A stretch of DNA of 64,000 nt from positions 1 through 64,000 of the IMG/VR virus record IMGVR_UViG_3300033388_002987, one strand, 5' to 3'. How positions within the stretch are numbered: the first letter of the stretch is position 1; every line of letters begins with the position of its first letter. Of this stretch, positions 7,458 to 59,687 are shown piece by piece. Source of the DNA: a virus. The position numbers and the translations under genes are program-made. A model generated the notes under the pieces. That model was not told where the DNA came from and did no database searches. It saw only the letters and a program-made list of their open reading frames with translations.

Positions 7458-7820
7458 TTATTCCTTTAACCAAGTAGGGACTAAATAATCCCCTTCTGTT
7501 GCATCTAATATCCCCATTTTAATCTTTAGTAGGAACAACCTTTTATCAATAGACCTGTAGTAAGCTTTCTCTTCAGCCACTATACCACCACGCTTCGCAT
7601 TGAAGGTCTCATTCTGCAGAACAACAACTTGCATCCTTGTAAGTGTAAGATCCATCTCAGCAACATTACTTTTCAAGGCATAATTACTAGCCTCTACTTT
7701 AGTAACGAAGTGATCGGTAATAAAACTACCACCAGTGTACACTAGACTAACTACAAATATAATACTCATAGCAAACTTCTTAATATCATCCATCCTAGTA
7801 GCAATCCACTTAAATGTCAT
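7458..7820 (-). CDS. Single-pass membrane protein with coiled coil, 120 aa
   Basis: One transmembrane segment near residues 16-33 is followed by a helical, coiled-coil-like ectodomain. This looks like an i-spanin or a holin-associated protein, but a better spanin pair exists at 3227-3783. The ATG lies a few bases from the stop of the preceding gene. Function unknown; inner-membrane location inferred. Confidence 0.65.
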   Translation of the reverse strand: MTFKWIATRMDDIKKFAMSIIFVVSLVYTGGSFITDHFVTKVEASNYALKSNVAEMDLTLTRMQVVVLQNETFNAKRGGIVAEEKAYYRSIDKRLFLLKIKMGILDATEGDYLVPTWLKE

Positions 7821-8464: not shown

Positions 8465-8622
8465 TACAGTTCGTAAACCTCACACTCTTTAGCACAAGCT
8501 TTCTCCTCGGCTTCTACTATATCAAACAACTTGCACCACAAAGCCCACGCTTCATGCCTAACATTGAAAGGCAATTCCATACTATATATAGTATCTACCA
8601 ACTCATTCATTTCAGTAGTCAT
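8464..8622 (-). CDS. Small acidic protein, 52 aa
   Basis: Starts MTTEMNELVD with an AAAAGG site and ends in TAATG coupled to the 8024-8464 gene. One predicted amphipathic helix and a Cys-containing C-terminus. No family recognised. Confidence 0.6.
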   Translation of the reverse strand: MTTEMNELVDTIYSMELPFNVRHEAWALWCKLFDIVEAEEKACAKECEVYEL

Positions 8623-8639
8623 TACTAACCTTTTTTCCA

Positions 8640-8653
8640 AGAGAGTTCTCTGG
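8640..8653. repeat. 14-bp repeat, copy 1 (inverted-repeat type)
   Basis: AGAGAGTTCTCTGG; its core is a near-perfect inverted repeat (AGAGA-GT-TCTCT). An identical 14-mer lies at 18015-18028, also within 75 bp of a copy of the 25-nt TCTGGGCAA element. Confidence 0.6.
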
Positions 8654-8696
8654 GCACATTTGACTAAACCGTGTAATCATCGTTATTAGAGAAGGG

Positions 8697-8721
8697 TCTC
8701 TGGGCAAATAATTGCACACAA
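8697..8721 (+). repeat. 25-nt TCTGGGCAA/TTGCACA element, copy 1
   Basis: Reads TCTCTGGGCAA, then four variable bases (ATAA), then TTGCACACAA. Further copies at 17940-17964 and 36871-36895 differ mainly in the four central bases, so GCAA-N4-TTGC can form a small hairpin or bind a dimeric protein. It lies between two minus-strand genes. Confidence 0.65.
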
Positions 8722-8725
8722 ACCT

Positions 8726-8959
8726 CTAACTATTCTTAGCTAATCCACAATCAGCACATACCTTACTAAGGCCACGTCTATTTCTCGTAACAACCACTGC
8801 ACCACTACATGCACACTTAGTATTGCTAGAAGCTTTCCTAATGATCTTTTCAATCATTTCTTTACTAGAGCTAGGCTCTTTAATAACCTCAACTAATTTT
8901 TCTTCTTTAATTTTCTTAGGCTTTTTACCCTTAACTACTTCATCTTTCTTTTCAAACAT
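8726..8959 (-). CDS. Lys-rich protein with C-terminal zinc-ribbon-like motif, 77 aa
   Basis: The N-terminal half is Lys/Glu-rich (KKPKKIKEEK). The C-terminal part has Cys-x-Cys at residues 48-50 and Cys-x-x-Cys at 68-71, which could bind one zinc. It is the first gene of the leftward block in the window. Possibly nucleic-acid binding; no family recognised. Confidence 0.6.
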   Translation of the reverse strand: MFEKKDEVVKGKKPKKIKEEKLVEVIKEPSSSKEMIEKIIRKASSNTKCACSGAVVVTRNRRGLSKVCADCGLAKNS

Positions 8960-9126
8960 AAATATCCTTTATTTTCAGCATTATATATAGATATATCTTT
9001 AAGTAACCTTAAGGAATTAACTTCGACTTCGTCTCGTCAACACCCGCTCTACGATCAAGTGGTTAGCCTATCGGCTTCCCACTCGCTCGTATTCGCTTGA
9101 TTTCCTTGCTCTCTTTGCCTAGGAGG

Positions 9127-9149
9127 TATTCGCGCAGCGGATAGCGACT
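9127..9149 (+). promoter_or_regulatory. Candidate virion-RNA-polymerase promoter hairpin A
   Basis: A 7-bp stem (TATTCGC/GCGGATA, one T-G pair) with a 3-nt GCA loop at 9134-9136; GCGACT starts 8 nt after the loop and AGGAG lies just upstream. N4 virion RNAP promoters are 5-7 bp stems with 3-nt loops upstream of the start site. Hairpin B has the same loop and downstream spacing but a different stem. Polymerase assignment is inference. Confidence 0.5.
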
Positions 9150-9247
9150 GGCTAAAGGACTCTATTGGGACGGGCTGATAATAGCAATCTGTTGGTAGTG
9201 AGGGATTGGGTAGTACTGGAGTTGCCTTGAATTTTTATATAGGAGCC

Positions 9248-9268
9248 TTTGCGCAGCAAATGGCGACT
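9248..9268 (+). promoter_or_regulatory. Candidate virion-RNA-polymerase promoter hairpin B
   Basis: A 5-bp stem (TTTGC/GCAAA) with the same GCA loop (9253-9255) as hairpin A. GCGACT again starts exactly 8 nt after the loop, and AGGAG again precedes it. The stem bases differ from A while pairing is kept. Confidence 0.5.
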
Positions 9269-9292
9269 AAGCTTTCTTAAATGGGAGCTTAG

Positions 9293-9316
9293 GGCTTTAA
9301 GGCTTTAAGGCTTTAG
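9293..9316. repeat. Three tandem 8-bp repeats
   Basis: GGCTTTAA, GGCTTTAA, GGCTTTAG in direct succession. Short tandem repeats near phage genome ends can mark packaging or termini processing; here that is only a suggestion. Confidence 0.6.
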
Positions 9317-9568
9317 GGGATATTTTTAGATTTTGTGAGGGGAGTGCAGTATATGTCCCAAAATCTTACTATCCTGCCTACACCCCCCGGTGCCTACAGC
9401 TCAAGGGGGACCCATTATTTCTGCCCTTAACTATTATCTCTCCTCTCATCCAGTACGCTCCTTCGTACCTCAGTTGCTCCTACCAATAGCAATGAGAGAT
9501 GCTCTCTCAAACTCTGCGCTCCTTACTCAAGTAGTGATAGACATAGCCATAGTGTGTATAGGCATGTA

Positions 9569-9587
9569 CTTTTACTTTAGTAATGAT
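9569..9587 (+). promoter_or_regulatory. 19-bp promoter-like motif, copy 1
   Basis: CTTTTACTTTAGTAATGAT. Copies at 11148-11166 and 14742-14760 differ by one base each. All three are in non-coding DNA 26-35 bp upstream of the start codon of a small plus-strand gene. Likely a promoter for a phage or host polymerase. Confidence 0.6.
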
Positions 9588-9613
9588 AGTCAATCTATAT
9601 ATAAGGATTTACC

Positions 9614-9703
9614 ATGATACCAATCTGTAACCACTTACTAATAGAGATATCAGTACTAATACTTTCTATAACTACTTCAGTGCTTGTACTACAGCTCTAT
9701 TAA
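9614..9703 (+). CDS. 29-residue membrane peptide
   Basis: ATG after an AAGGA site. After a short N-terminus the peptide is one hydrophobic helix (Ile/Leu/Val-rich, about residues 8-27). First gene downstream of the early leader. Very small early membrane peptides are common in N4- and T7-like phages; the function is unknown. Confidence 0.5.
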   Translation: MIPICNHLLIEISVLILSITTSVLVLQLY

Positions 9704-9771
9704 ACTACCTTGAGGGATTTAAACACCTCACTCCGTTGACGCTGATATGGCTACGGCCACTAAAAATAAGT

Positions 9772-9785
9772 TGTACTATAGTACA
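9772..9785. promoter_or_regulatory. 14-bp perfect palindrome upstream of the first larger early gene
   Basis: TGTACTATAGTACA is self-complementary over 14 bases and sits 36 bp before the ATG at 9822. It may be an operator or an mRNA hairpin. Confidence 0.35.
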
Positions 9786-9821
9786 TTAACTCAACACAAC
9801 AAACATCCGTAGGAGGATTAT

Positions 9822-10169
9822 ATGACATACGAAAGAAAAGTGGGCTTCTTTGGCTCTATCAAAGCATTAGGTACAAATACAGTTAAAGGTGCAGACCTTG
9901 TAGTAAACGACGCAATCGGTATTACTACAGACATCACAGGCGGTACTCGTGTAGTATCAACTGTTGCCCGTCAAGCTATGAGTATTTGGGGAGACAACCT
10001 ACTTGCAGATTTAGAAGCTGATAAAGCTATTGACGGTATCCACCGTGAAATAGCTAGTATCCAACAAACTAGTGAGTTAGACGCTTTAAAAGCAGAACTT
10101 GCTAAGGCAAAAGTAGTCCAAGGTCGCCCAAAAGGGTCAAGAAATAAACCTACGGAAAAGGTAGCATAA
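9822..10169 (+). CDS. Early protein with AT-hook-like tail, 115 aa
   Basis: Preceded by the strong leader CCGTAGGAGGA (9807-9817). The N-terminal part is Gly/Thr/Val-rich, the middle (residues 60-95) is helical and coiled-coil-like, and the C-terminus has GRPKGSRNKP, an AT-hook-like DNA minor-groove motif. A DNA-binding early protein is plausible; no family assigned. It is probably highly expressed. Confidence 0.75.
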   Translation: MTYERKVGFFGSIKALGTNTVKGADLVVNDAIGITTDITGGTRVVSTVARQAMSIWGDNLLADLEADKAIDGIHREIASIQQTSELDALKAELAKAKVVQGRPKGSRNKPTEKVA

Positions 10170-10840: not shown

Positions 10841-10844
10841 TATC

Positions 10845-10964
10845 ATGGACCAAACTATAATAGCTCTATATTTACAAGGCACATCACTACACACTCTTTC
10901 TAAAGATACAGGTGTCAGTATACATCGCATTATATCTTTGGTTCATCACCATCTTACTAAATAG
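10845..10964 (+). CDS. 39-residue HTH-like peptide
   Basis: The pattern Leu-Gln-Gly-Thr-Ser-Leu ... Leu-Ser-Lys-Asp-Thr-Gly-Val-Ser-Ile-His-Arg-Ile resembles a single helix-turn-helix of the resolvase/sigma type. No strong SD, but it lies 4 bp after the previous stop and its own stop merges with the terminator stem at 10963. Confidence 0.45.
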   Translation: MDQTIIALYLQGTSLHTLSKDTGVSIHRIISLVHHHLTK

Positions 10965-10990
10965 CTCCTTCGGGAGTTACCTTTTTTTTT
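10963..10990 (+). terminator. Rho-independent terminator with UUCG loop
   Basis: A 6-bp stem (10963-10968 with 10973-10978, one G-T pair), TTCG loop, then ACC and a run of T residues. It closes the first early transcription unit. Confidence 0.85.
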
Positions 10991-11201
10991 CTCAAGAGCA
11001 CCCTAGTTCGCTTCGCTCACTTTCTTACTAGCACACTTAGCTCGTACCTCACCTCTCCTCAAGCACACTAGAAGACAGGACGCCGAAGGCAGAGTGTCTA
11101 CCTCACGCACAACTAACTAAATCTCCCAAGCTCTCTGTCAGTTCTAGCTTTTACTTTAGTCATGATTACATCTTCAAATAATTTAACCATAAAGGATTTA
11201 C
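10991..11201 (+). other. Gene-free spacer after terminator, with second promoter-like motif
   Basis: No gene. An imperfect hairpin with a 3-nt TTC loop lies near 11009-11025. Mixed inverted repeats lie near 11084-11112. It ends with the 19-bp motif ahead of the 11202 gene, so it probably restarts transcription after the terminator. Confidence 0.45.
11148..11166 (+). promoter_or_regulatory. 19-bp promoter-like motif, copy 2
   Basis: CTTTTACTTTAGTCATGAT, one base different from copy 1, ending 35 bp before the ATG at 11202. Confidence 0.6.
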
Positions 11202-11426
11202 ATGAATAAACTACTAACACTAGCAATAGCTCACATTAAGGGAACTAGTGGGCTTACGCACGCTATGTTCACTCAGCCCTTTGACAAGGCCTTAAAGGAC
11301 TCATCATTAGCAGATAAGCGTCAGCTTATCAGCGTATTAAGCAAGACATTAAAGGATAGTCAAGACATCGATACAATCCGTACAGCGTCAGCTGTTCGGG
11401 ATATGACATTAAGGGCACTTCGTTAG
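11202..11426 (+). CDS. Small helical early protein, 74 aa
   Basis: AAAGGA site 6 nt upstream. Basic, mostly helical (two or three helices), ending in Arg. First gene after terminator 1 and the second promoter-like motif. No family recognised. Confidence 0.65.
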   Translation: MNKLLTLAIAHIKGTSGLTHAMFTQPFDKALKDSSLADKRQLISVLSKTLKDSQDIDTIRTASAVRDMTLRALR

Positions 11427-11671
11427 AGTCCATATAAAGCTCTTGAAGCCTTCGACTTCAATAGTGAGGTCAGACGTAGTCTGAGCGAAGTTATTGCCTT
11501 TAAGGGGTAGTAATGGGGCTCTGGGAGGCACAAGTGCTGTACTCCTACAACATCCCAACCAAACTCCAACACAATATACAACAAACTCGATACAATCAAT
11601 GTACATATTAAGCTTACTTCAAGCCTAAGTACAATACACTACCAAACCAATAAATGACATAAAGGCCTTTC
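11427..11671 (+). promoter_or_regulatory. Gene-free spacer with two hairpins
   Basis: 245 bp without a gene. Hairpin 11443-11448/11456-11461 (TTGAAG/CTTCAA) is followed by a 6-bp stem with 3-nt loop at 11470-11484 (TCAGAC-GTA-GTCTGA) and then GCGAAG, similar to the GCGACT downstream of the two early leader hairpins. May be a promoter or an RNA processing site. Confidence 0.4.
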
Positions 11672-12663: not shown

Positions 12664-12671
12664 GGAACTGT

Positions 12672-12824
12672 ATGAAAACTAAGGTACACCAAGTCTTCCA
12701 CATGGACAAATACGGTAAACACCACATCAGCTACTTCTACAGCACAGTCACAGAAGCTAAACGCTTCAGAAGTAAATGTCAAGCCTCTGGTATGACTCAT
12801 GTAATGGTTAAGAGCCGTTACTAA
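12672..12824 (+). CDS. Small basic protein, 50 aa
   Basis: Starts MKTKVHQVFH after AAGGA; His/Lys/Tyr-rich and beta-like, ending in a basic tail. It fills the gap between two larger frames. Confidence 0.55.
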   Translation: MKTKVHQVFHMDKYGKHHISYFYSTVTEAKRFRSKCQASGMTHVMVKSRY

Positions 12825-12847
12825 AAAATTGACATAAAGGAAATCCT

Positions 12848-13069
12848 ATGCAACAACTCCACGACCTACCTTACTTCAAGCCTCACGGCTCTAGTAAGAT
12901 ACACAGGAAACAATACCATAACGGTACAGGCATCCTAATAATAGACAACAACGGCCTCTACGAGTCCGTAGTACACACTCCCACAAAACCAGATATTATT
13001 ACTAGTAAACAAACACTTGAGCAAGTTAACACCTTGCTAGAGCAACTTCATAAGGATAATCATGAGTAA
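12848..13069 (+). CDS. Small protein, 73 aa
   Basis: AAAGGA site; His-rich N-terminus, a beta segment and an amphipathic C-terminal helix (ending LEQVNTLLEQLHKD). Overlaps the next gene by 8 bp. Unknown function. The next protein has a similar ending, so the pair may be distant paralogs. Confidence 0.6.
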   Translation: MQQLHDLPYFKPHGSSKIHRKQYHNGTGILIIDNNGLYESVVHTPTKPDIITSKQTLEQVNTLLEQLHKDNHE

Positions 13070-13274
13070 CTTTATAATACTGTCACTACTAGACCACACT
13101 AGTTCAGAAGTTGCTATCCGTAAAGATTTAATAATCCGCCTATGGAAAAACGGCAACACCACTCATGTATATTACCTATCAACACCTAAAAGTACTACAA
13201 CCTTAGATATTACAGTGGCTAAACCACTAGAAGAAGTACTTAAGCTTCTAGACACAACCAAATCCCTACCATAA
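13062..13274 (+). CDS. Small protein, 70 aa, possible paralog of its neighbour
   Basis: The C-terminal part (TKSxLDIT...PLEEVLKLLDTT-like) echoes the 12848-13069 protein. ATG 8 bp inside that gene with an AAGGA site. No family recognised. Confidence 0.6.
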   Translation: MSNFIILSLLDHTSSEVAIRKDLIIRLWKNGNTTHVYYLSTPKSTTTLDITVAKPLEEVLKLLDTTKSLP

Positions 13275-13283
13275 GGAAACAAT

Positions 13284-13412
13284 ATGAAAATGTACACCAA
13301 AACATCCCGTTCACTTCGCCCAAGACACGCCCATAAACCGGCTCAGCCTATTAAAACTAGAGCAGAAATGCTTACTAATGGCAAGTTTACAGTAATTAAA
13401 ATAAAGGCTTAA
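13284..13412 (+). CDS. Small basic protein, 42 aa
   Basis: AAGGA site; Arg/Lys/His-rich N-terminal half (SRSLRPRHAHKP). Might bind nucleic acid. Unknown. Confidence 0.5.
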   Translation: MKMYTKTSRSLRPRHAHKPAQPIKTRAEMLTNGKFTVIKIKA

Positions 13413-13413
13413 G

Positions 13414-13524
13414 ATGACTGGAGTTTACCTACTATTAACAGCAATCCCACTACTAATAATAGCTTTAGGCTGTATCCTTTACTGGGGAATTAAGTATAGT
13501 AAAGATGAGGACTTATACCCTTAG
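13414..13524 (+). CDS. 36-residue membrane peptide
   Basis: One long hydrophobic helix (about residues 4-25) and a charged tail (KYSKDEDLYP). ATG 1 nt after the previous stop. Early membrane peptide of unknown role. Confidence 0.5.
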   Translation: MTGVYLLLTAIPLLIIALGCILYWGIKYSKDEDLYP

Positions 13525-13627
13525 AGTAATTCTATGGTACCTAACACTTAAAGTTATCCTTAACAGGACCAAATGTATACCTGAAGACACTTCGTGGCTT
13601 CTACCTACCTTAAAAGGGTTCACATGA
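13505..13627 (+). CDS. Small basic protein, 40 aa (tentative)
   Basis: Starts inside the end of the previous gene and ends with TGA overlapping the ATG of the next gene (ATGA), which favours a real, coupled gene. It has only a weak SD. Hydrophobic and basic residues are mixed. Confidence 0.35.
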   Translation: MRTYTLRVILWYLTLKVILNRTKCIPEDTSWLLPTLKGFT

Positions 13628-22466: not shown

Positions 22467-22592
22467 ATGTTAAAACTTATACAAAACAACGGATTAGGAC
22501 TACTAGTAGGAGCCATTATAGGCTTTATTTTACCAATTTATATAGTGTTACCGGTACTATTAATAGTAGGATGGTTAACACTTAAAGACTAG
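22467..22592 (+). CDS. 41-residue membrane protein
   Basis: Starts 2 nt after the previous stop, with a GAGGAG site inside that gene. Two hydrophobic stretches (about 9-24 and 25-37), charged end KD. Last gene of the envelope-linked cassette 20309-22592. Confidence 0.55.
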   Translation: MLKLIQNNGLGLLVGAIIGFILPIYIVLPVLLIVGWLTLKD

Positions 22593-22594
22593 TA

Positions 22595-22722
22595 GCCGAT
22601 AAACCGGCCAAAAGAACGCTATAGCCGAATGGCTATACAACCTCAGGCAATCTGCTGAGGTAGTCCAGTACAACGAAGAAGTTGTACCAAAAAATAAGGT
22701 TACTAAGCCTTCACATTTAAGG
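22595..22722 (+). promoter_or_regulatory. Array of five hairpins after the envelope cassette
   Basis: GCCG/CGGC (22595-22608), TATAGCC/GGCTATA with GAAT loop (22620-22637), CCTCAG/CTGAGG (22641-22660), GTACAAC/GTTGTAC with GAAGAA loop (22668-22687), and AAGG/CCTT (22696-22711, with a second AAGG at 22719). 137 bp contain no gene. The stems differ from one another but the spacing is regular (roughly 20-27 bp). No T-tract, so not a simple terminator. Confidence 0.6.
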
Positions 22723-22729
22723 TAATAAT

Positions 22730-23612: not shown

Positions 23613-24056
23613 GCTTTGCTTGGTAGTATCATAAAGCTCTAATGAGCATATCATGTACTCGCAAGGTACATTCAGCCACACTGGTGGACCAACTGTGTAA
23701 GAGGTCTAGAACTCTTTCTGGTATGTTCTTTAGAGTTTTACAAATGTAGTGGCGGAATCATTGTTCGTAATTTACCCATTTATGGTTGAACAGAAAAGAC
23801 GCACTTGAATAAGTAACGCTCGACAATAAGATTACTATCCACAGGTGGAAGTCCTGTGGCTACATAAACCACTGTATCTCCAAATTCACAATATGTTCCA
23901 CATATTGAAATATCGTTGTACCAAGCACGTGGTGGTGCTGGTACTTTCATTGAACAGTCTATATAGAACACTTATAATATTTATAAATATAACTTATCCT
24001 CCTACGGTAATTTATAGGCTGTTCAGTGAGAGTACTCAAACCTCAAAAGGAAAAAC
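23613..24056 (+). ncRNA. Structured non-coding RNA candidate with covarying hairpin and anti-SD loop
   Basis: 444 bp without a plausible gene. Features in order: TGTAC/GTACA hairpin near 23651-23668; the motif hairpin CCACAGG/CCTGTGG at 23839-23859 with loop TGGAAGT, followed by GGCTAC (matching motif at 43268-43288); CAATATGT/ACATATTG with 3-nt loop at 23889-23907; a 10-bp stem with one bulge at 23918-23944. A long-range pair TGAACAG 23951-23957 with CTGTTCA 24019-24025 encloses an AT-rich loop bearing TCCTCCTACGG at 23997-24007. The strand is inferred from that anti-SD and from the flanking genes. Confidence 0.6.
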
Positions 24057-41532: not shown

Positions 41533-42354
41533 ATGATACCTAAATGGCTCTGGAATAAAACAATAGCAGTATACGATCTCGAAACAGACCGTATACCAAC
41601 GACCTTAATATATATGATGGGTGTATCAGTAGTAACTATCAACGCCAGAGGCGTTGCTACCTCAACTCCTAGTAAAGTCTTCACACACACCTGGACCTCT
41701 TACTCCAACGGAAGCCTTATGCAAGGCATCTCCTTAGTAAACTCCTGTGATTTCAGAGCTGGTCACAACTCCGTCGGATTTGATGACTACGAAGTTCGAA
41801 GGTATCTTAACATCCTACTTACTAAGCCAGCTCTCGACACTATGATACTCTCCAAGATAATCTTTTCCAAAGATGATCTCTTTGCTATGGATCCTCAACT
41901 AAAGATTGATAAAGACTTATGGGGAGGCTACTCGCTCAAGGCCTTTGGTCAACGACTAGGCGACTTTAAAATCTCCTTCGATAACTTCAACAAGATGAAC
42001 GAGGAAATGGCAGTATATTGTAATCAAGATGTAAATCTCACCAGTAAACTCCTACTTTTCCTTCTAAACAAAGAGAACTTCCCACTAGAACCTGTCGTAA
42101 CAATTGAACATCAGGCTGCTGCTATAATAGCTGAACAAACTGCCTTTGGTTTCTATATTGATATAGACTTAACTAGGAAGCTTAATACTAAGCTCCTTAA
42201 AGAAAAACTAGAACTATCTACTGAGCTCTCTAAGATCTTCTCTCCTAAGTTCTTAAAAGATGGTCCAGTTAAATCATACAAGAAAACAAGCAAGGTTAAG
42301 AAGTACCTTCCTAACACTCACTACATACCACTAATAGGAACTAATTATGACTAG
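41533..42354 (+). CDS. DNA polymerase (family A) 3'-5' exonuclease domain, separate gene
   Basis: 273 residues. DnaQ-type exonuclease motifs: ExoI VYDLETD (Asp15, Glu17), ExoII GHNSVGFDDYEV, ExoIII YCNQDVNLTS. The protein continues a little past the domain, into the segment that in T7 DNA polymerase links exonuclease and polymerase (LSTELSKIFSPKFL...KKYLPNTHYIPLIG), then stops. The matching polymerase domain starts at 58314 right after that linker region. It would proofread in trans if the two halves assemble. Confidence 0.85.
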   Translation: MIPKWLWNKTIAVYDLETDRIPTTLIYMMGVSVVTINARGVATSTPSKVFTHTWTSYSNGSLMQGISLVNSCDFRAGHNSVGFDDYEVRRYLNILLTKPALDTMILSKIIFSKDDLFAMDPQLKIDKDLWGGYSLKAFGQRLGDFKISFDNFNKMNEEMAVYCNQDVNLTSKLLLFLLNKENFPLEPVVTIEHQAAAIIAEQTAFGFYIDIDLTRKLNTKLLKEKLELSTELSKIFSPKFLKDGPVKSYKKTSKVKKYLPNTHYIPLIGTNYD

Positions 42355-42514: not shown

Positions 42515-42976
42515 ATGAACCTCTCAGACGATTCCATAGATCAAATCTATGAGTCCCTAGATTTATCCTGCTACCACTTCACTTGGTCCATTATAAACAA
42601 AGGCTCCAAAGGAGACTTTGTACTAGAATACATCCACCAAGAACTACTTCAAGACAGCTCTTTAACACGCTGCCTTGCATTAGTATTATGGGATAGTATG
42701 GACTGGAATGATGCTGTAACAGCTTATAATGATGAAGATTATCTAGTATTAACTACAGAAGAAGTAGACGATGAAATGCTAGAATCTGCCCAGAGTTATT
42801 TATATGAAGTAGTACTTCCAGAAATCCCGGAGTACCTACACTATTACTTCAATGAAGATACCTATATTAAAGACTACATTAATGATACAGTTCCCGGTGA
42901 AGTTATTGCAGACCATGATGGTGCGGAGCACTCTGTAGATGTAGATGGAACAACTTATTATATTTATAGAAAATAA
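42515..42976 (+). CDS. Very acidic protein, 153 aa
   Basis: Starts 3 nt after the previous stop with an AAGG site. Asp and Glu dominate over Lys and Arg throughout, with many Tyr and Trp. Such composition occurs in DNA-mimic anti-restriction proteins (Ocr-like), but no motif ties it to one. Last gene before the large gene-free block. Confidence 0.55.
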   Translation: MNLSDDSIDQIYESLDLSCYHFTWSIINKGSKGDFVLEYIHQELLQDSSLTRCLALVLWDSMDWNDAVTAYNDEDYLVLTTEEVDDEMLESAQSYLYEVVLPEIPEYLHYYFNEDTYIKDYINDTVPGEVIADHDGAEHSVDVDGTTYYIYRK

Positions 42977-44473
42977 TACGCTCGTCTCTATAAGACGTCG
43001 GGTTTGTGAAGCGAGGCTAACAAAACCAGTAAATGAAGTTTGCTGTACAAATAAGTCTTGAGATAGATAGTGACTGCCTGCTAAAGTACACGGCTATAAA
43101 ATGCAATCAACATCTACTAGTAGTGATGGAATCAGTGACACCTTAAGTGGTCTGCGGATTCGCGGTAAACTTTATTCTAGATAAAGGGTACTTGACCGCT
43201 ACTTCGGTAGTAACATATATGGTGAGTACAGTTACATGAGACATTTTGAGTCTAAGGAACTTGACATCCCAGGGTCGAAGTCCCTGGGCTACTAAAAGTC
43301 TAAACGAGACTGTAAATTGTACCGAACCCTTTAAGTAGGGCTAAATTGCAGGTTGCGGCCAACAGTCCGTACTAATAAATAGAATGATGCAGAAATGTAG
43401 AAATAGAGACTTACCTGTTCCACCACCTTATCTAAGGGCAACACCGTGAAGCCGGGGAACGACCAGTACGATTTATCGCTGACCCTAGACGGTCTTCAGC
43501 TGAAGAAAGCGTCCAGCTTCCACTCCATTTGCCTTCATTGGAGTATAACATTAAGACACCGGGATTTATACACCTTGGTTAATACAAACGTATGATATGA
43601 GCAGTAGGCTGCCTGTGTAAGTCAGGCCTGGGACACCAAAAGTCACGTAGGACCACTAGACTATAAAATCCATGGTGCTTGCTGGGATGCAAGGTGTAAA
43701 CCGTCTGACCGCTGTAGAGGACGTTAAATAGGCAGATACTAGTGAATCTAAGCAATCATTAGTAGCTAGTAACGTCAATGACAGAATAAGCTACGGCTTA
43801 GGAATCTTCGTTATGAAGGTGCCCACTACCTTAAGTGTGGGAGCTATGTTGTACCCATTCGGAGGGAACCTGACGCAGGCATAGTGAGTTCGAAACCGTC
43901 TAGTTGTGACTACTAATTAAAGTACAGACAATCCCTGTGAGCATACATAGTGGTGCAGGCCACAGCTTATTCCCTGGTTTGGGGTACAGTCCGTTCAAAT
44001 CGAGACTGGGTAAGTCCTGTTAATGTATGTTCTTAGGGGTCGTCGCAGCATGCAAGCGAATGACCGCTAATCATAAATAAACATGTACCATTATTTGTCA
44101 GTTGCGTAAATTCGAAAGAAACTGTCTGGTCAAACATATAGCTGAGGGATGTAACCTTTCAAAGTATATCTCAGCACAAACAAATAAGCTTATGGAGCTA
44201 ATAGACTAGGTAGGGAATCCTGCACTATTGGTTCTAGTAAGTTTATCGGGTCAAGCAAATGCCCCTCACAGCCCACGCCAGTATGATTGGATTCAAAGGG
44301 AGTAGTAAAATAATATGTGCCAAACAACGTGTATGAGAGTAAATACTACCGTTATTGTGATGGGTGTGCCTAGCCAGGACCTGTAGACTACCAATTCACA
44401 ATTAAAACAAAGAATAATAACGTTATGGTGCCCAGCAAACCTGGGTACTAGTAACGACTATTAAAGGAATTAA
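42977..44473 (+). ncRNA. Large gene-free, hairpin-rich block: candidate giant structured RNA
   Basis: About 1.5 kb with no ORF of 60 codons on the plus strand, in a genome that is otherwise packed. Many perfect stems, including CTAC-TTCG-GTAG near 43199-43210, CCCAGGG/CCCTGGG 43268-43288, GACG/CGTC enclosing TCTTC-AGCT-GAAGA near 43488-43513, GCCTG/CAGGC near 43610-43626, CTTGC/GCAAG near 43678-43693 and CCCAC/GTGGG near 43822-43841. A closed multi-branch domain lies at 43939-44032 (10-bp closing stem). GCTGAG/CTCAGC 44141-44175 and GTGCCCAG/CTGGGTAC 44428-44448 follow. It ends just before the SD of 44474. I read it on the plus strand by context. Confidence 0.6.
43939..44032 (+). ncRNA. Closed multi-branch RNA domain within the large block
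   Basis: The ends pair over 10 bp (GAGCATACAT 43939-43948 with ATGTATGTTC 44023-44032, one G-T). Inside are GTGG/CCAC (43950-43963), CCC/GGG, and ACAG/CTGT enclosing GACT/AGTC. This nested layout is what a folded domain looks like and is not expected from random AT-rich DNA. Confidence 0.55.
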
Positions 44474-44851
44474 ATGAACTTCAAAATAGGTGATTCAGTA
44501 CGTATTAAAACATTAGCAAACCTAACAGAACAGTACGGAGTGTATGGCGACGGTGATATAAGGTGCTCCCCTTACTTTAAACCATCTCACAAAATATACT
44601 GTGGAAGATCTGGTACTATATCATCAATAACTGATAATGGGATTGCACTTACAGAAGCAGCTTTTGATAATAACGTATTCTCCTCGAAAGTATTAGAACG
44701 AATAGTTGAACTTACACTAGTTAAAGGGCATATACTTATATGTGATTTTGATGCATACTCAATAAACATTAATATAAATAAAGGGTACACTATACGTGAA
44801 TTTCATGATAACAAATGTATAATGGTGTATTCCCCTATAAATACTTTATAA
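44474..44851 (+). CDS. SH3-like domain protein, 125 aa
   Basis: AAAGGA site. FKIGDSVRIKTLANLTEQYG...CGRSGTISSI matches the N-terminus of the 31106-33262 ATPase (FKIGDKVRVKF...GFAPKMYNACGAVDTII). Single SH3/KOW-like module; unknown function. First gene after the large RNA block. Confidence 0.65.
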   Translation: MNFKIGDSVRIKTLANLTEQYGVYGDGDIRCSPYFKPSHKIYCGRSGTISSITDNGIALTEAAFDNNVFSSKVLERIVELTLVKGHILICDFDAYSINININKGYTIREFHDNKCIMVYSPINTL

Positions 44852-44859
44852 GGTAATCT

Positions 44860-45405
44860 ATGAAACAATATGGAATAATACTAGGACGCATGCAACCAAT
44901 ACATATAGGCCACCAATCACTAATAGATAAAGTCATCTCCGATGACTTTACTCCTATAGTAATTCTTGGAACAGCTCAAGAATTTGGTACTAAGAAAAAC
45001 CCTTACCACCCTCTAGAACGTATCCATATGGTAAAATTAGTCTACCCTGACATCAGAGTATACGCCATGGACGATACTGAAGACTGGGATAAGTGGTTTA
45101 CAAACTTAGTAGATATCATCAAACTAATAGCTACTACTAACCTCTCCGAGGTTACAATATACACTCACAACAAACCTGAAGACCTTATGGACTTCACGTT
45201 CAAAGGTGTTGATTACACTAACGAGTACTACAGCAAATGCTACGAAATACTTGGTATCAATACAGAAAACATCAAAACATCTCACGTCCCTATAAGAGCC
45301 TCATCAATAAGAGCGAACTTAGAAATAAACAAACAATTCCTAGACCCTAAAGTCTACAACTACATAAAGGGCTGTAATGCTAAAACCAGTAACAATAATA
45401 TCTAA
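44860..45405 (+). CDS. nadM: Nicotinamide mononucleotide adenylyltransferase (NMNAT)
   Basis: 181 residues. Nucleotidyltransferase HIGH-type motif GRMQPIHIGH (residues 8-17), HPLERIHMV, a TEDWDKWF segment, and the C-terminal IRASSIR motif. It joins NMN and ATP to give NAD. In phages such as KVP40 it is fused to a Nudix domain; here the Nudix gene follows separately with a 29-bp overlap. Works with the NAMPT at 45960. Confidence 0.85.
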   Translation: MKQYGIILGRMQPIHIGHQSLIDKVISDDFTPIVILGTAQEFGTKKNPYHPLERIHMVKLVYPDIRVYAMDDTEDWDKWFTNLVDIIKLIATTNLSEVTIYTHNKPEDLMDFTFKGVDYTNEYYSKCYEILGINTENIKTSHVPIRASSIRANLEINKQFLDPKVYNYIKGCNAKTSNNNI

Positions 45406-45958
45406 AGAAAAATTAACAAACCCTAGATTCATCAGTACCTCAGCTCTTAACATCATTAGAGACAGCCACACCATGCAATGGGAAATGATTAACTCATTAC
45501 CAACAGTTCACATACTTGTAAACAAAGTAGACTCTCAAGAAATCTTACTAGTTAAACAAGTACGCCCTCCTGTTCTCTACAACAACAATGCACCACATGG
45601 TGAGTGCATCGAGGTATGTGCTGGACTAGTAGATAAGTACAGTAGACACCATGAAGATTCTCAAACTGCTTTAGTTGCTAAAGAAGAAGTACTTGAAGAA
45701 CTAGGTTACACTACAAGTTACATCCAAAGACTACAACCTATTCTAGGTTCTGTAGGAACAGCTGGCACTAAATTACATCTATTCTACACTGAAGTAACTG
45801 ATGCCAACTTCGTTGGCCAACAATTGGAGCCAACTGAGGATATCGAAGTAGTTAAACTATCTTACGAAAATGTATTAAATTTTATTAATACAACATCAAA
45901 CACAGACTCTACAACAATTATGTTATTACAATGGTTCTTATTAAATAAAAGGAAATAA
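45377..45958 (+). CDS. Nudix hydrolase (ADP-ribose-type)
   Basis: 193 residues. Nudix box in GLVDKYSRH...AKEEVLEELGY: Gly, then the x-E-E-x-x-E-E-x-G core, with Lys replacing the usual Arg. Large ADP-sugar pyrophosphatase-like plan (long N-terminal strands with VKQVRPPVLY). It may hydrolyse ADP-ribose, clearing the product of defence NADases. Overlaps the NMNAT gene; 1 bp before NAMPT. Confidence 0.8.
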   Translation: MLKPVTIISKEKLTNPRFISTSALNIIRDSHTMQWEMINSLPTVHILVNKVDSQEILLVKQVRPPVLYNNNAPHGECIEVCAGLVDKYSRHHEDSQTALVAKEEVLEELGYTTSYIQRLQPILGSVGTAGTKLHLFYTEVTDANFVGQQLEPTEDIEVVKLSYENVLNFINTTSNTDSTTIMLLQWFLLNKRK

Positions 45959-45959
45959 A

Positions 45960-47360
45960 ATGCAATCAATACTAAGCCTTGGAGACTCTTACAAGTACTC
46001 TCACAGTTCTCAATACCCTTCCAACACAGTCTCCATGTACTCTTACATGGAATCTCGTGGAGGAAAATACGAGGCAACTGTATTCGTAGGCCTACAATAC
46101 TACTTAGTAAAGTACTTAACAATCCCTGTAACATTACAAGAACTTGAAAAGACTAAACTCAAAGCGGCTGCCCATGGCATCCCCTTCGACTACGATGGCT
46201 GGTTACACATAATAAACAACCACAACGGTCTATTACCAATAAAAATTAAAGCAGTAAAAGAAGGCTCACTAATACCTGTAAAACATGTCCTATTAACAAT
46301 TGAATCAACTGACCCAGCTGTCCCTTGGATTGCTGGCTTCGTAGAAACTCTTCTAATGAAGATATGGTACCCAACAACTATAGCAACTAAGTCTTACTAT
46401 GTAAAACAAATGCTAACTAAATATGGCTCACCTGGATGGGCTCAATTTGCATATCATAACTTCGGAGATCGTGGAGCTACATCAGTTGAAGCCGCTGCAA
46501 TAGGTGGCATGGCCCACCTAACACAATTCAGCGGAACTGACAACTTTAACGCTTTAGACCTATGCGAGGACTTCTACGAAGAACCTATGGCAGGCTATTC
46601 TGTATACGCAACTGAGCACTCTACAACTACGTCCTATGGACGTGACGGTGAAGAACAATTCGTATACAACCAACTATTAGCAAATCCTGATAAGCCTATC
46701 ATGAGCTTCGTAGCTGACTCTTACGACGTGTACAACTTCACTGAATTCTGTACGGCTCCTGGTAGTCGTATTAGAAACCTAGTTGAATCTCGTCCACACC
46801 AAAAACTAGTCTTACGTCCAGATAGTGGCAACCCTTTAGAAGTACTACCTAAAATGCTAAATATAGCATTCCACAATGGCGCCATTACTACAGGCCCTAA
46901 AGGCGCTTACATATTTACTGATTTTGCGTTTCTTTGGGGTGACGGTATTACACCTGAAACTATAGAACTAATTCTTAAAGCACTTATTGAACTTGGTTAT
47001 GCAGCTGAAAACTTCGTTTTCGGCTCTGGTGGGGACTTAATGCAAAACATCAACAGAGACACTCAACGCTTCGCGATTAAGTGCTCTAATATTACAGTAG
47101 CTAAATCCTCAGGACAAGGCTTGCAACGTACTCACTACAATGAAGACATCGACGTCTACAAAGACCCTATTACCGACCCTGGTAAAGCATCTAAACGTGG
47201 CAAAGTAACTACTTGGTATGACACCTTATCAGGTGAAATAACCCAAGGACTGGTAAACACTCCTCCAAACTTAGACTGTATTTGTTTACTACAAACTGTC
47301 TTTGAAAATGGTAAGGTAGTTAAACCCACTATATTAGCTGAAATTAGAGAGGCAATATAA
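45960..47360 (+). CDS. nadV: Nicotinamide phosphoribosyltransferase (NAMPT)
   Basis: 466 residues, full family length. Key motifs: YSYMESRGG near the N-terminus, NFGDRG, the catalytic His in YATEHST, LRPDSGNPLEV, and FGSGGDLMQN. Makes NMN from nicotinamide and PRPP. With the NMNAT this is a complete two-step nicotinamide-to-NAD path (NARP2-like). Confidence 0.95.
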   Translation: MQSILSLGDSYKYSHSSQYPSNTVSMYSYMESRGGKYEATVFVGLQYYLVKYLTIPVTLQELEKTKLKAAAHGIPFDYDGWLHIINNHNGLLPIKIKAVKEGSLIPVKHVLLTIESTDPAVPWIAGFVETLLMKIWYPTTIATKSYYVKQMLTKYGSPGWAQFAYHNFGDRGATSVEAAAIGGMAHLTQFSGTDNFNALDLCEDFYEEPMAGYSVYATEHSTTTSYGRDGEEQFVYNQLLANPDKPIMSFVADSYDVYNFTEFCTAPGSRIRNLVESRPHQKLVLRPDSGNPLEVLPKMLNIAFHNGAITTGPKGAYIFTDFAFLWGDGITPETIELILKALIELGYAAENFVFGSGGDLMQNINRDTQRFAIKCSNITVAKSSGQGLQRTHYNEDIDVYKDPITDPGKASKRGKVTTWYDTLSGEITQGLVNTPPNLDCICLLQTVFENGKVVKPTILAEIREAI

Positions 47361-51192: not shown

Positions 51193-51598
51193 TCAACTAG
51201 GTTACGGTATTAGGCCGTTTATAAATAGCAGGTCGCTTACCTATTACTCCTCTTATAGTAACGCTCAACTTAGGGCGGTACCTGCTTGCAGAACTGTAGT
51301 GGAGGCCAATGCGACATGCCTAATAAGTACTAGCAGTCTGTCAAGACTATAAACTTGTCTGACATAATCTCTCAGAAGTATCTCTACCCATACTAATTGA
51401 GGTAGATGCAAAAAGACACAGCAACTGTATAAGGCTAGAGCAGGGTGGATCCTGCTTACATTTAGTACTCCTAAGAGCATCAACAGCACCATGTAAGGGG
51501 TGCGTTGTAGCAGAGAAGGTTTACACCTTCTCGGTACCGAGCAGGTACATGCAACAGCTGATGTTCTAAGGAATACTAATAAATTTTAAAGGAATAAC
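51193..51598 (+). ncRNA. Structured gene-free block, third RNA candidate
   Basis: 406 bp without a gene. Stems include AGCAGGT with ACCTGCT (51218-51224 / 51281-51287, long range), AGTCT/AGACT near 51333-51346, TCTACC/GGTAGA near 51383-51406, AGCAGG/CCTGCT 51439-51456, GCACC/GGTGC near 51486-51504, GAGAAGGT/ACCTTCTC (8 bp, loop TTAC) near 51513-51532, and GTACC/GGTAC near 51534-51548. No T-tract. Plus strand assumed. Confidence 0.5.
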
Positions 51599-52579
51599 AT
51601 GACAGGTTTACAAGAATTAATTAATAAGATAAAAGCTGAGGATCACTCAGCGTACTTAGCACTGCTAAATAAGATAAATGGTGAGAAAATGGACAGGTAC
51701 GCCATTGGTAAATTATTTGCAAGTGCTACATTCACAAAAATAACTAATAATCAGTTACTACTACTACGCTCTATGAGTTTTAAAGGTGGTGATACTATCT
51801 GGCTTAGCACGTATAACCGTACACTTTCAAGCTTTGAAAATAGGTTTCAGAATACGCGTGGAGACTACCAGTTGAAATATGGTATTGATTCTCTACCAAA
51901 AGTTGATACTAAATTTATAACTACCTACCACAGAACTCAATGGCGTAAAGCTAACCCGTCTACTCGTAAGAACGGTCCTGCTAAAGGTACTCAATTTACA
52001 TTTAAAATGGATATGTTCTCACTAACCATCTTTAAAAATAGTATAAAGAACGAGTTCCTCCGCACCGAGGGTAAGAACTTTATAATGAAAGTCAATAAGG
52101 CTTTCAGTGAGTCAGAAGGTAATGATTCCCATACTAAGATACGTAATAAATTTTATGCACTGATACTTGATAATACTCCAGTACATACTAAAGCTATGAT
52201 AAATGAATTAAGTCCAACTGCTTTAAAAACTAATGGTACTTACTACATACCTGATGCTGATGAAGCAATAATAGTAGGATTCCGTTGGGGAGGTGATAAC
52301 GAAGTTAGCTACGCTACATCCTATAGCATGGACACATACTCAACTGACTTACCACTAGTAACACACAACATCGGATCAGAAGATGAACGTCACAATAATA
52401 GGTTACTATCAGCCAGCTCTATGTTACTAACAGCACACGCCTCGACAGATTGTGAAGCTTATAAGTCTGCAGCTACACGTATGGTAAAACACTTACCAAG
52501 AACTATAGTCACAGCTGCTTTAGCAAAAACACAAGCCGTAGCGACACTACGCTCAATCTTAAAGGAATCAAATGAATAA
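51599..52579 (+). CDS. Unknown protein, 326 aa, in front of the AAA+ gene
   Basis: AAAGGA site. Mixed alpha/beta with a basic middle (WRKANPSTRKNGPAKGTQF). Overlaps the AAA+ gene by 8 bp, so likely works with the AAA+/VWA pair. No family recognised. Confidence 0.65.
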   Translation: MTGLQELINKIKAEDHSAYLALLNKINGEKMDRYAIGKLFASATFTKITNNQLLLLRSMSFKGGDTIWLSTYNRTLSSFENRFQNTRGDYQLKYGIDSLPKVDTKFITTYHRTQWRKANPSTRKNGPAKGTQFTFKMDMFSLTIFKNSIKNEFLRTEGKNFIMKVNKAFSESEGNDSHTKIRNKFYALILDNTPVHTKAMINELSPTALKTNGTYYIPDADEAIIVGFRWGGDNEVSYATSYSMDTYSTDLPLVTHNIGSEDERHNNRLLSASSMLLTAHASTDCEAYKSAATRMVKHLPRTIVTAALAKTQAVATLRSILKESNE

Positions 52580-52769: not shown

Positions 52770-53851
52770 TAACAAACAATTGAACATTACACTTAAAACC
52801 TACCACGATGAGAATATAAAAATGATAATGGTAGTCTAAAGTAATAATGTTTAATTTGTTACAGCCCCTCTACACAGTAATGTGTATAGCAAATCCCTTT
52901 AATTGCTGGGAACTCTTGTAAGTTTTAATACTACAATAACCGTGAAAACAGGTTATGAATGTTTAACAAATTAAAAATAGAGACAATCAGCAGCCAAGCT
53001 CCGTATAGGAGAAGGTTCAACGACTAGTGCATTGTGCACGTACACCTAAGTAGGTGGAAATGGGGGACATCTTTAAACTAACTTTAAGAAATTTCTCGGT
53101 ATACTTACTTATCTAATTTAAGGAAGTACAATGGGAAATAAAGAAATTTTCAAACCAGTCAACTCTAAATACGGTACTCGTTACGAAGTGTCAAATCAAG
53201 GAAGACTGAGAATAACAACTAAGTGTGGAACAAAGCTCCGAACAGGTAGCTTACACCCTCAAATGCATACTACATATGTAAAAGCATCATTATCTAATAA
53301 TGGTATAAACTACACAGTACATATGCACAGACTAGTTGCCGAGGCATTCATACCGAATCCTGACAATAAACCATTCGTAAATCATAAAGATAAGGATGGT
53401 ACTAATAATAATGTATCTAATCTAGAGTGGACAACTCCCTCAGAGAATATGCAACATTCCGCTGATAATCTAGCCCTTAATAGTAAAGCTAAAAGCACAA
53501 AGAAACGTATAACTACGGTAACTCTTGACAGCTTTGAAGATTACTTAACATATATAGGCAAAGACATCGGAGGACGTACTATTATTGGTGTACAGTATAA
53601 GAAACTAACAATAGGCAATAAGCCTGTATTTAAGTGGTTTGGTGTTTATACTTGTAACAATTGTCAAGACGAAATAAGTAGCCCTTGGAATCAAACAATG
53701 AGAAGATCACTAGAAGGACGTAAGCAATTTTGCTTACAATGCTCTAGAAAGTTAAAACCTAAAGATGAAGATATAGTCTAGCCTACACAGAGATGTGTAG
53801 CTGCAGGTAATGCTGCGGACACAGCCTAACGAGCTGTGTTGAATATAAGCG
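52770..53851 (+). other. Group I intron with HNH gene in the AAA+ gene
   Basis: About 1082 nt. The 5' exon ends in T and the predicted intron in G, the group I rule. Core elements seen: AATCAGCAGCCAAGC near 52985-52999 (P4/Q-type), GGTTCAACGACTAG near 53013-53026 (R / P7 5' strand) and AAGATATAGTC near 53768-53778 (S / P7 3' strand). The HNH gene sits between R and S, so in the P8 region. I could not identify the P1 guide pairing with certainty, so borders may shift by a few bases. Confidence 0.8.
53131..53781 (+). CDS. Intron-encoded HNH homing endonuclease
   Basis: 216 residues with AAGGA site. NUMOD4-like start (YEVSNQGRLRI), HNH core VHMHRLVAEAFIPNPDN...VNHKDKDGTNNNVSNLEWTTPSEN, and a C-terminal zinc-ribbon (CNNC...CLQC) as DNA-binding addition. 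Its last codons overlap the intron S element. It would cut intronless copies of the AAA+ gene and spread the intron. Confidence 0.9.
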   Translation: MGNKEIFKPVNSKYGTRYEVSNQGRLRITTKCGTKLRTGSLHPQMHTTYVKASLSNNGINYTVHMHRLVAEAFIPNPDNKPFVNHKDKDGTNNNVSNLEWTTPSENMQHSADNLALNSKAKSTKKRITTVTLDSFEDYLTYIGKDIGGRTIIGVQYKKLTIGNKPVFKWFGVYTCNNCQDEISSPWNQTMRRSLEGRKQFCLQCSRKLKPKDEDIV

Positions 53852-57643: not shown

Positions 57644-58336
57644 ATGAACCAATTCCAATACACACTAGCTATGAATAAAATACCTACACTTAAAACTCAT
57701 AAAGCGAAAGAAGAATTTGCTAGGGAGATCTACGAAGTATTAGAGCCTCATGGTAAATGCTATTCTATGGATGTTAAAGACGACAACATACAAACTATAG
57801 TAAACGGGTATAAATGCCTTTGTGTAATAATACCTTTATGTACCAGTGCTAAAGGTTTACCACAATTTATAACTACCATACATGAGAACTGTCGTATAAG
57901 TTTACTAAGACGATGCACTAATACTAATAATATTACGTACGATGAGTATATTGATATGTTTCAATATGAGACTAATGAATTAAATTTTAGTAATGGGTAC
58001 CCTAGTAGTAGACAGCCATTTATTGACTTAATTGGAACTAACATTCAACCATATAAAATAGATCTAAATTTACGTGCAACAAATCAAGGCACTTATAGTG
58101 TACCATCATTTGATTTGTATACCCACAATCAATTACTGACTCTAGAAATGTATAAAGACCTAGCACTAAAAAGTAAAGTATTAACAGTAGTAGAAGATGA
58201 GTTAAAACGCCTTTATAGTCTAGTAGCTTCCCTAGACACTGCAGCTATGTTAACTGACTTAGACGATATAACACGCTCAGCTAATCTAATAACTAGTACC
58301 ATAAAGGCTCGCAATGAACAAGTTGGCACCATATAA
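57644..58336 (+). CDS. Unknown protein, 230 aa
   Basis: Starts MNQFQYTLAMNK, similar to 60020 (VNQFDYIVAVEK). Mixed fold with a helical end (LKRLYSLVASLDTAAML). Overlaps the polymerase gene by 23 bp. In a split-polymerase context it could be an accessory factor, by position only. Confidence 0.6.
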   Translation: MNQFQYTLAMNKIPTLKTHKAKEEFAREIYEVLEPHGKCYSMDVKDDNIQTIVNGYKCLCVIIPLCTSAKGLPQFITTIHENCRISLLRRCTNTNNITYDEYIDMFQYETNELNFSNGYPSSRQPFIDLIGTNIQPYKIDLNLRATNQGTYSVPSFDLYTHNQLLTLEMYKDLALKSKVLTVVEDELKRLYSLVASLDTAAMLTDLDDITRSANLITSTIKARNEQVGTI

Positions 58337-59687
58337 GATACCATACGGACGCTACCTGAAATCAGGTGAGTACAGACCTCCAGGTAAGAAATCACTAAAG
58401 TGGTTCACAACCCCTCACAGAACTATTCACGTCACCCGTGAGGGTGACTACCAACAAGTAAAATACGAAGCCTTCAACCCTGGCTCACGCCATAACATCC
58501 GTCAATGGATGGAAGAGGACTTCGGCTATACATTCCCTTACTACACTCCCAAAGGTAACCCTAAAGTAGATGTAGATTCCCTAGAGAACATGCAACATCC
58601 TTCAGGTAAGCTCCTTAGACGTTACCTGAAGGTAACGAAAGACCAATCTCAAGTGGGAGGAGCCGACGGTTCACTAGTTAAAAACTACAATGAAACTCAG
58701 CGTACTGTAAAGTCAAGGACTGACACTAATGGAACGGTAACAGGCAGGTTCACTAGTAGCTCAATTAACTTAGCACAGATACCTGCACAACAAGAGTTCC
58801 GAGAACTTTTCAGGGCACCTCAAGGCTGGTCCTTCTTAGGAACAGACTTTAGTGGACAAGAGAACGTCAACCTAGCAGAAATGCTCTACCCATACGACGA
58901 TGGACGCCTAGCGGACATCATCGCCTCAGGTAACAAGGACGATGGTACAGACCTTCACTCCCTAAACGCTAAAGCCTGTGGCATCTCCCGTGGAGACGCT
59001 AAACCACTTTGGTTTGGATTCCTATACGGATCCTCTCCAACCTTAACAGGCTACACGTTACTAAAGCATGGCTTCTTTGCTGACTACACTCCTAAAGAGT
59101 TTACTGCTATGGAGAAGAAACTTAAACGTAGAGTAATCTCGCTAGACACTGGTGAATTCTACCCAATCAAGAAAGACGCACTAGTACCATTCAATAAACA
59201 GCTTATTATACAAGCGCTCTTTGGTGCTAAAGTACAAGCAGACCTTATTGCATCAACACATGGACTTGCAAGCCTCATTAAGAACTTAACTATGACAGCT
59301 AAGGCAAATGGGTATGTAACTATGTTTGGCGGCCGCAGGGTACCTATACGTCACGCTCACGCTACACTTAACTCACAACTACAAGGTATGGGTGCTGAAG
59401 CAATGAAGCACTACCTAGTATTCTATCACGAGGAAGCTAAGCGCCAAGGTTTACACCATGGCCAACACTTCAAACAAGAAGCTTGTATTTACGATGAGGT
59501 AGACTTAATAGTACGTGATGATAAACGCTTTGAAATAGCTGATATCCTCCAAGGTACTTACGAAAAGGTCTCCACACACTTAGGTATGAAATGTACTTAT
59601 ACAGGCGAGGTCCTCATAGGAGGTCACTCTAAAGACAAGCATGGCCCTAACGGCCTTGCTGATAACTCGTGGCAAGGATGTCACTAA
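58314..59687 (+). CDS. DNA polymerase (family A) polymerase domain, separate gene
   Basis: 457 residues; AAAGG site 6 nt before the ATG. FNPGSRHNIRQWMEEDFGY matches the T7-type FNPSSRDHIQ start of the polymerase region. T/GR/SS motif near 140-150; motif A TDFSGQE (Asp178); motif B RGDAKPLWFGFLYG (226-239); motif C IYDEVD (Asp394). Thumb and fingers are complete, but there is no exonuclease domain; that lies in 41533-42354. N4 gp39-like. Confidence 0.92.
   Translation: MNKLAPYKIPYGRYLKSGEYRPPGKKSLKWFTTPHRTIHVTREGDYQQVKYEAFNPGSRHNIRQWMEEDFGYTFPYYTPKGNPKVDVDSLENMQHPSGKLLRRYLKVTKDQSQVGGADGSLVKNYNETQRTVKSRTDTNGTVTGRFTSSSINLAQIPAQQEFRELFRAPQGWSFLGTDFSGQENVNLAEMLYPYDDGRLADIIASGNKDDGTDLHSLNAKACGISRGDAKPLWFGFLYGSSPTLTGYTLLKHGFFADYTPKEFTAMEKKLKRRVISLDTGEFYPIKKDALVPFNKQLIIQALFGAKVQADLIASTHGLASLIKNLTMTAKANGYVTMFGGRRVPIRHAHATLNSQLQGMGAEAMKHYLVFYHEEAKRQGLHHGQHFKQEACIYDEVDLIVRDDKRFEIADILQGTYEKVSTHLGMKCTYTGEVLIGGHSKDKHGPNGLADNSWQGCH

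Follow-up and report, generated by a model that had tools for sequence, protein, structure and literature searches.

A gene-free block at 42977–44473 of the 64,000-nucleotide window analyzed here is, by comparison with related phages, a previously undescribed structured RNA composed of separate folded modules. The plus strand of the block very probably encodes a functional noncoding RNA. Alignment identifies an orthologous noncoding locus in two N4-like phages, the window's own and L002, with islands 1 and 2, M2, M1 plus its tail, and M3 as its conserved modules. An earlier note had nominated the block as a candidate giant phage RNA. Homology, covariation, and a model that recovers a held-out copy uphold the structured RNA locus, but not the single giant RNA, because other intergenic intervals, far shorter ones, contain M1 alone, and in relatives it is mixed with tRNAs and tRNA-like bodies.

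The virus record containing the window is 117,954 bases long. In the rest of the record, one encoded protein is a virion RNA polymerase (PHROG 2206, E 5e-99) and another is an N4-type portal. By gene content, the source phage is N4-like. The polymerase is only ~22% identical to those of cultured N4-like phages, which places the phage on a deep uncultured branch. ORFs of 153 and 125 aa border the block, which is part of an early-type gene cluster. On the 5′ side of the block, a polA-type exonuclease gene precedes two small ORFs; on the 3′ side, the 125-aa ORF is followed by an NMN adenylyltransferase-like gene, an ORF of 193 aa, and NadV. All of these are on the plus strand. The genes from the adenylyltransferase-like one to NadV span 44860–47360 and are a probable phage NAD salvage cluster, in which the 193-aa ORF looks Nudix-like by eye. 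The polA-type 3′–5′ exonuclease (41533–42354) and a polymerase-like protein (58314–59684, a label that rests on similarity to L002) are separate genes 16 kb apart. A group I intron with an HNH-like ORF (53131–53781) splits an AAA-ATPase-like gene at 52770–53851; its Rfam match (52847–53135) scores barely above the gathering threshold. The relative L005 has an uninterrupted version of this gene, and 53820–53848 is identical to a stretch in another relative, L045. Further window intervals without an ORF of at least 85 aa are 8465–9970, 10841–11671, 12664–13593, and 22590–22725. Several strong hairpins are seen by eye in the last of these, and it may hold further RNAs.

The block is gene-free on both strands, as the earlier note had stated. 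No listed ORF exceeds 58 aa, and stop-to-stop frames reach 65 codons at most, compared to a mean of 94 in shuffles. The G+C content by codon phase is flat (0.427/0.425/0.437), in contrast to the flanking genes, and block-derived peptides had no match in the relatives. The overall GC content is raised (0.43 versus about 0.37). The objection raised in advance, that the block is a decayed coding sequence, fails; a protein gene or pseudogene was rejected because an open frame, codon periodicity, and a protein homolog are all absent. Dense structure across the whole block, which had also been claimed, was not found. The 11 perfect hairpins present (stem of at least 5) are at chance level: dinucleotide shuffles average 9.2 hairpins and 28% of them reach 11. 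Local folding energy is likewise at chance level, with a mean sliding-window z of −0.30 in the block compared to −0.84 in the flanks, and a z of −1.1 for a 991-nt piece. Exceptional folding is confined to 43.9–44.05 kb and 44.18–44.25 kb. The closed multibranch domain noticed earlier is present at 43931–44040 (z −3.9, 0/200 shuffles as stable), and the UUCG loop was found as cUUCGg at 43202.

Relatives were collected using NadV and the exonuclease as baits; the flanking orphan ORFs used as bait found nothing. L002, a 111-kb record, has a noncoding block of about 2.6 kb in the same syntenic position, a length that leaves out the first 270 bases, which resemble two small ORFs by sequence reading. 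L003 and L004 have 0.8-kb noncoding blocks at comparable positions. The true orthologous locus is that of L002 only, and the near-identical contig L018 adds no information. The window and L002 blocks have common islands of 35 nt (91% identical), 33 nt (91%), and 20 nt (100%). Island 1 (43491–43564, plus strand) is a hairpin, CUCCA..UGGAG, followed by UAUAACAUUAAGA, and it aligns with L002 6040–6115 (74% over 77 nt, E 1.6e-8), including a 35-nt core that is 91% identical. Island 2 (UACACCUUGnUUAAUACAAACGUA; 43560–43592, plus strand) is 91% identical over 33 nt to L002 6178–6210. The islands, M1 plus tail, and M3 follow in the same order in both blocks, and the L002 block is ~1.7 kb longer between the second and third islands. 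Much of the block, for example 43000–43220 and 43600–43900, is without demonstrated conservation. DNA similarity searches of 50,697 phage records gave no match to three window intervals and only weak tRNA matches to the L002 block. Pattern scans of viral contigs with island 1 or the motif of the M1 closing helix gave true matches in the L002 phage only; L014 also has the helix motif, but it was collected through NadV and not by the scan. The pattern matches in L008–L010 and L020–L025 were rejected as chance (for example, the L021 match overlaps an ORF end).

M1 (43931–44040, plus strand) consists of a helix on the scale of 18 bp, P1, that closes a multibranched, apparently pseudoknotted interior. 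The domain has a fold z of −3.93, covariation, and a model score of 72.8 bits. P1 has about seven outer pairs, a 1x1 mismatch that is a pair in two of the copies, and about nine inner pairs with GAGCAU/AUGUUC. A second copy at 23632–23740 (plus strand; 71.2 bits, E 4.7e-16, z −4.32) sits in a noncoding interval of ~0.4 kb (about 23615–24056). A third at 51462–51579 (plus strand; 51.9 bits, z −8.0) is in a 406-nt noncoding interval and ends 20 nt upstream of the gene start at 51599. Four copies are found in L002 (6542–6638, 6845–7028, 7906–7999, and 8197–8298) and one in a third phage, L014 (371–445). All eight, three in the window and five in these relatives, are in noncoding intervals and in gene sense, and the folding z of seven of them ranges from −1.8 to −8.0.

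The P1 helix is supported by compensatory change. In the eight-copy alignment, 94.5% of cells are paired, a figure biased upward because several copies were picked via the motif or helix pairing; double changes are found in 11 of 16 pairs (0/500 shuffles), and slid controls collapse. The M1 orthologs at window 43931 and L002 8197 differ by seven double changes, of which P1 accounts for five, and no pair is broken. A covariance model, R1, built on seven M1 copies recovers the held-out eighth (L002 6850–7024, E 5e-5). R1 gives exactly three matches in the window's 118-kb record and no further convincing match beyond the eight copies over 560 kb. We did not detect M1 with R1 in phages N4 and LIT1, and four pattern matches in the scanned bacterial genomes all have chance-level R1 scores. 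One G-U pair of P1 is invariant in 8/8 copies, and R1 scores M1 43931–44040 at 72.8 versus 22.1 bits on the two strands. The invariant pair and the strand-specific scores point to M1 as an RNA of one strand, and the G-U pair to an RNA helix of the plus strand only. The covariation that the earlier note had looked for in a family alignment is present in M1, M2, and M3, in few sequences.

A CAGG/CCUG hairpin lies inside M1 in the L002 6542, 7906, and 8197 copies and in the window 43931 copy. In all four, the 3′ part of its loop is complementary to the segment immediately 5′ of the P1 3′ strand, the complements being, in that order, GACUG/CAGUC, ACCG/CGGU, CACUG/CAGUG, and GCUUAUUC/GGGUAAGU. The shuffle p values (0.11, 0.18, 0.05, and 0.02) are individually weak. 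The consistent position of the complements together with a different sequence in each copy suggests a pseudoknot, and the M1 interior is likely to form one. The M1 tail (44038–44077, plus strand) is a hairpin, GGUCGUC..GAAUGACC, plus GCUAAUCAUAAA. Its 20 nt identical in L002 have flanks that cannot be aligned, and the tail adjoins M1 in both orthologs.

A cloverleaf-shaped domain is predicted at 43226–43322 (plus strand; fold z −2.56) with the closing helix GUACAGUUACA/UGUAAAUUGUAC, and the M2 hairpin (43266–43290, plus strand) is one arm of this fold. M2 has the form UCCnnnGG, a T-loop-like 7-nt loop UNGAAGU, and CCnnnGGCU. The second M2 copy (23836–23860, plus strand) is 3′ of the second M1 copy, and the third is at L014 42–66. 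All cells are paired and double changes are found in 3 of 7 pairs, over these three sequences only. M3 (44184–44246, plus strand) is a long hairpin with a bulged A close to the 3′ end of the block. Compared with L002 8449–8512, M3 has 24 pairs with six double changes and none broken, and its folding z is −5.2 in the window and −8.4 in L002.

The tRNAs of the window are 36 kb from the block and on the opposite strand, and a search of the block for a tRNA-like body (a T arm adjoining a 7-bp acceptor stem) gave no matches. The acceptor-stem plus T-arm pattern was found in the L002, L004, L011, and L014 blocks. The only tRNA-model match over the family cut-off in the L002 record falls inside its block. 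L002 6264–6352, 7440–7513, 7747–7820, and 7829–7898 are tRNA bodies with an acceptor stem, a T arm, and an anticodon arm that is odd or extended; ARAGORN detects none of the tRNA bodies in this block and Rfam finds 7747–7820 only. The L004 block has a tRNA-Met and a tRNA-Leu, both normal. At L011 2767–2913 (identical in L013), a complete tRNA (2799–2872) with a 6-nt anticodon loop is nested in the anticodon loop of another, and the outer tRNA is itself built of acceptor, D, anticodon-stem, and T arms. At L011 6571–6684, the anticodon loop of a tRNA body contains ~38 nt of inserted, structured sequence.

The block matches no recognized RNA family; the earlier note likewise could not match it by eye. 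An Rfam search of window 42700–44700 at E ≤ 10 returned nothing but two chance snoRNA matches, with no GOLLD or ROOL, and searches of the L002 and L003 blocks at permissive thresholds gave no GOLLD or ROOL match and no family for the block. The absence of a group II feature is borne out by Rfam, which finds no intron in the block. Group I and group II introns were rejected since there is no Rfam match and no interrupted gene, and the same search finds the 52847–53135 intron. The judgment that the block is not a retron also holds; PF00078 is absent from the 117,954-base record, which may be incomplete. A retron noncoding RNA was rejected on the lack of an RT in this record and of an msr/msd layout in M1. 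At L014 2067–3553, a phage carries a retron-type RT with two retron-like noncoding RNAs in tandem after it, each RNA consisting of an inverted repeat, then AGC and the common hairpin TAGAGAGWCGTTTCGWCCTCCTA. An RT of similar type, at L004 17766–19180, precedes long inverted repeats. The RT of the L002 phage (L029 3321–4319, minus strand) is among tail-fiber-like genes, which suggests a diversity-generating retroelement.

The block is most likely a cluster of compact stable RNAs resembling a tRNA operon. The number and order of modules vary between phages, with M1 found singly at 51462–51579, and the occurrence of M1 in separate short intervals favors modules. We tentatively propose that these compact modules with long closing helices mature from an early transcript and act in trans. 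The block would be cotranscribed with the neighboring genes, and the long helices that close M1 (about 110 nt) and other compact RNAs would serve to release or protect them. The host RNase III could plausibly cut at or near P1, which is a guess; no RNase III gene is encoded by the phages. The released RNAs would act in trans early in infection, and the company of tRNAs and tRNA-like bodies in relatives raises host translation or the tRNA machinery as a possible target. A new modular RNA family, in which M1, a pseudoknotted domain recognizable by the invariant G-U pair and fixed mismatch of P1, was copied between loci and inserted with tRNA-like bodies into a growing giant RNA of interchangeable structured parts, is conceivable but somewhat doubtful.

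The main rival, one continuous GOLLD/ROOL-type giant RNA (~1.2–1.5 kb here and ~2.6 kb in L002), is unlikely. Such an RNA would fold as a unit and might self-assemble, with M1, M2, and M3 as its domains and the tRNAs as linker passengers. The order of islands, M1 plus tail, and M3 kept despite ~1.7 kb extra in L002, and the tail fused to M1, favor such a larger unit, and the L002 block holds tRNA-like bodies as GOLLD linkers do (PMC12286853). However, global folding is at chance level, M1 is alone in ~0.4-kb intervals at two other places, no conserved long-range pairing is shown, and there is no Rfam match to GOLLD or ROOL. It is rather improbable that M1 and its neighbors are cis-acting mRNA elements that control stability, processing, or translation from the 5′ or 3′ UTRs of polycistronic transcripts. 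The third M1 copy ends 20 nt upstream of a start codon, every copy is in gene sense, and processing sites are typically long helices, whereas every other copy is separated from the nearest start by hundreds of nt, the block at 43 kb far exceeds the needs of a UTR, and one L002 interval contains four copies.

A functionless graveyard of inserted repeats, decayed tRNA genes among them, is highly improbable. The broken anticodon arms of the tRNA-like bodies in relatives and the lack of conservation over most of the block fit such decay, but the compensatory changes in M1, M2, and M3 with almost no broken pairs contradict it, the 20-nt tail is identical although its flanks are unalignable, and the window's own block lacks a tRNA-like body. 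N4-type virion RNA polymerases are a class that uses hairpin promoters, and this phage has one; even so, there is very little likelihood that the block consists of DNA-level elements such as these promoters or sites for replication or packaging. The invariant G-U pair and the two-strand difference in R1 score indicate an RNA of one strand, and a promoter reading of islands 1 and 2 was ruled out because neither has a second copy elsewhere in the window.

The preferred cluster of stable RNAs shares features with several known systems. The relatives L014 and L004 have retron-type RTs beside inverted-repeat RNAs, and the L014 stretch directly after the RT is similar (73% over 62 columns) to the inside of the M1 copy at L002 7906–7999; this stretch has the CAGG/CCUG hairpin and the downstream complement but not the P1 motif. 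Like tRNA-like structures, M2 has a T-loop-like 7-nt loop and the blocks of relatives hold tRNA bodies, whereas the window block lacks the acceptor plus T-arm combination. Phage tRNA operons can carry extra stable RNAs, such as T4 RNA C and RNA D. The block is syntenic to tRNA clusters of relatives, and RNAs of ~110 nt among tRNAs are a further point in common with these operons; unlike them, it has no normal tRNA, M1 is also alone elsewhere, and its processing is hypothetical.

GOLLD, ROOL, and similar large phage RNAs are widespread and unexplained. If the present reading is correct, the N4-like lineage has an independent large phage RNA with a repeated, separable domain of ~110 nt. At its size M1 would lend itself to probing, pull-down, and deletion, which would make the binding partners of such RNAs directly testable, and the growth of the locus by addition of structured modules, including a tRNA nested in a tRNA in a relative, bears on the origins of giant RNAs. 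GOLLD and ROOL are phage-encoded and often near tRNA islands, and the GOLLD linker sometimes holds tRNAs (PMC12286853). The locus is like them in being a probable long, multidomain phage noncoding RNA with likely pseudoknots and no known protein partner; tRNAs or tRNA-like bodies lie inside the blocks of L002 and L004, and the tRNAs of the window 36 kb from its block. It differs in having no sequence or model similarity to them at E ≤ 10, an unexceptional global fold, and an architecture built from a domain that is repeated both within and between loci.
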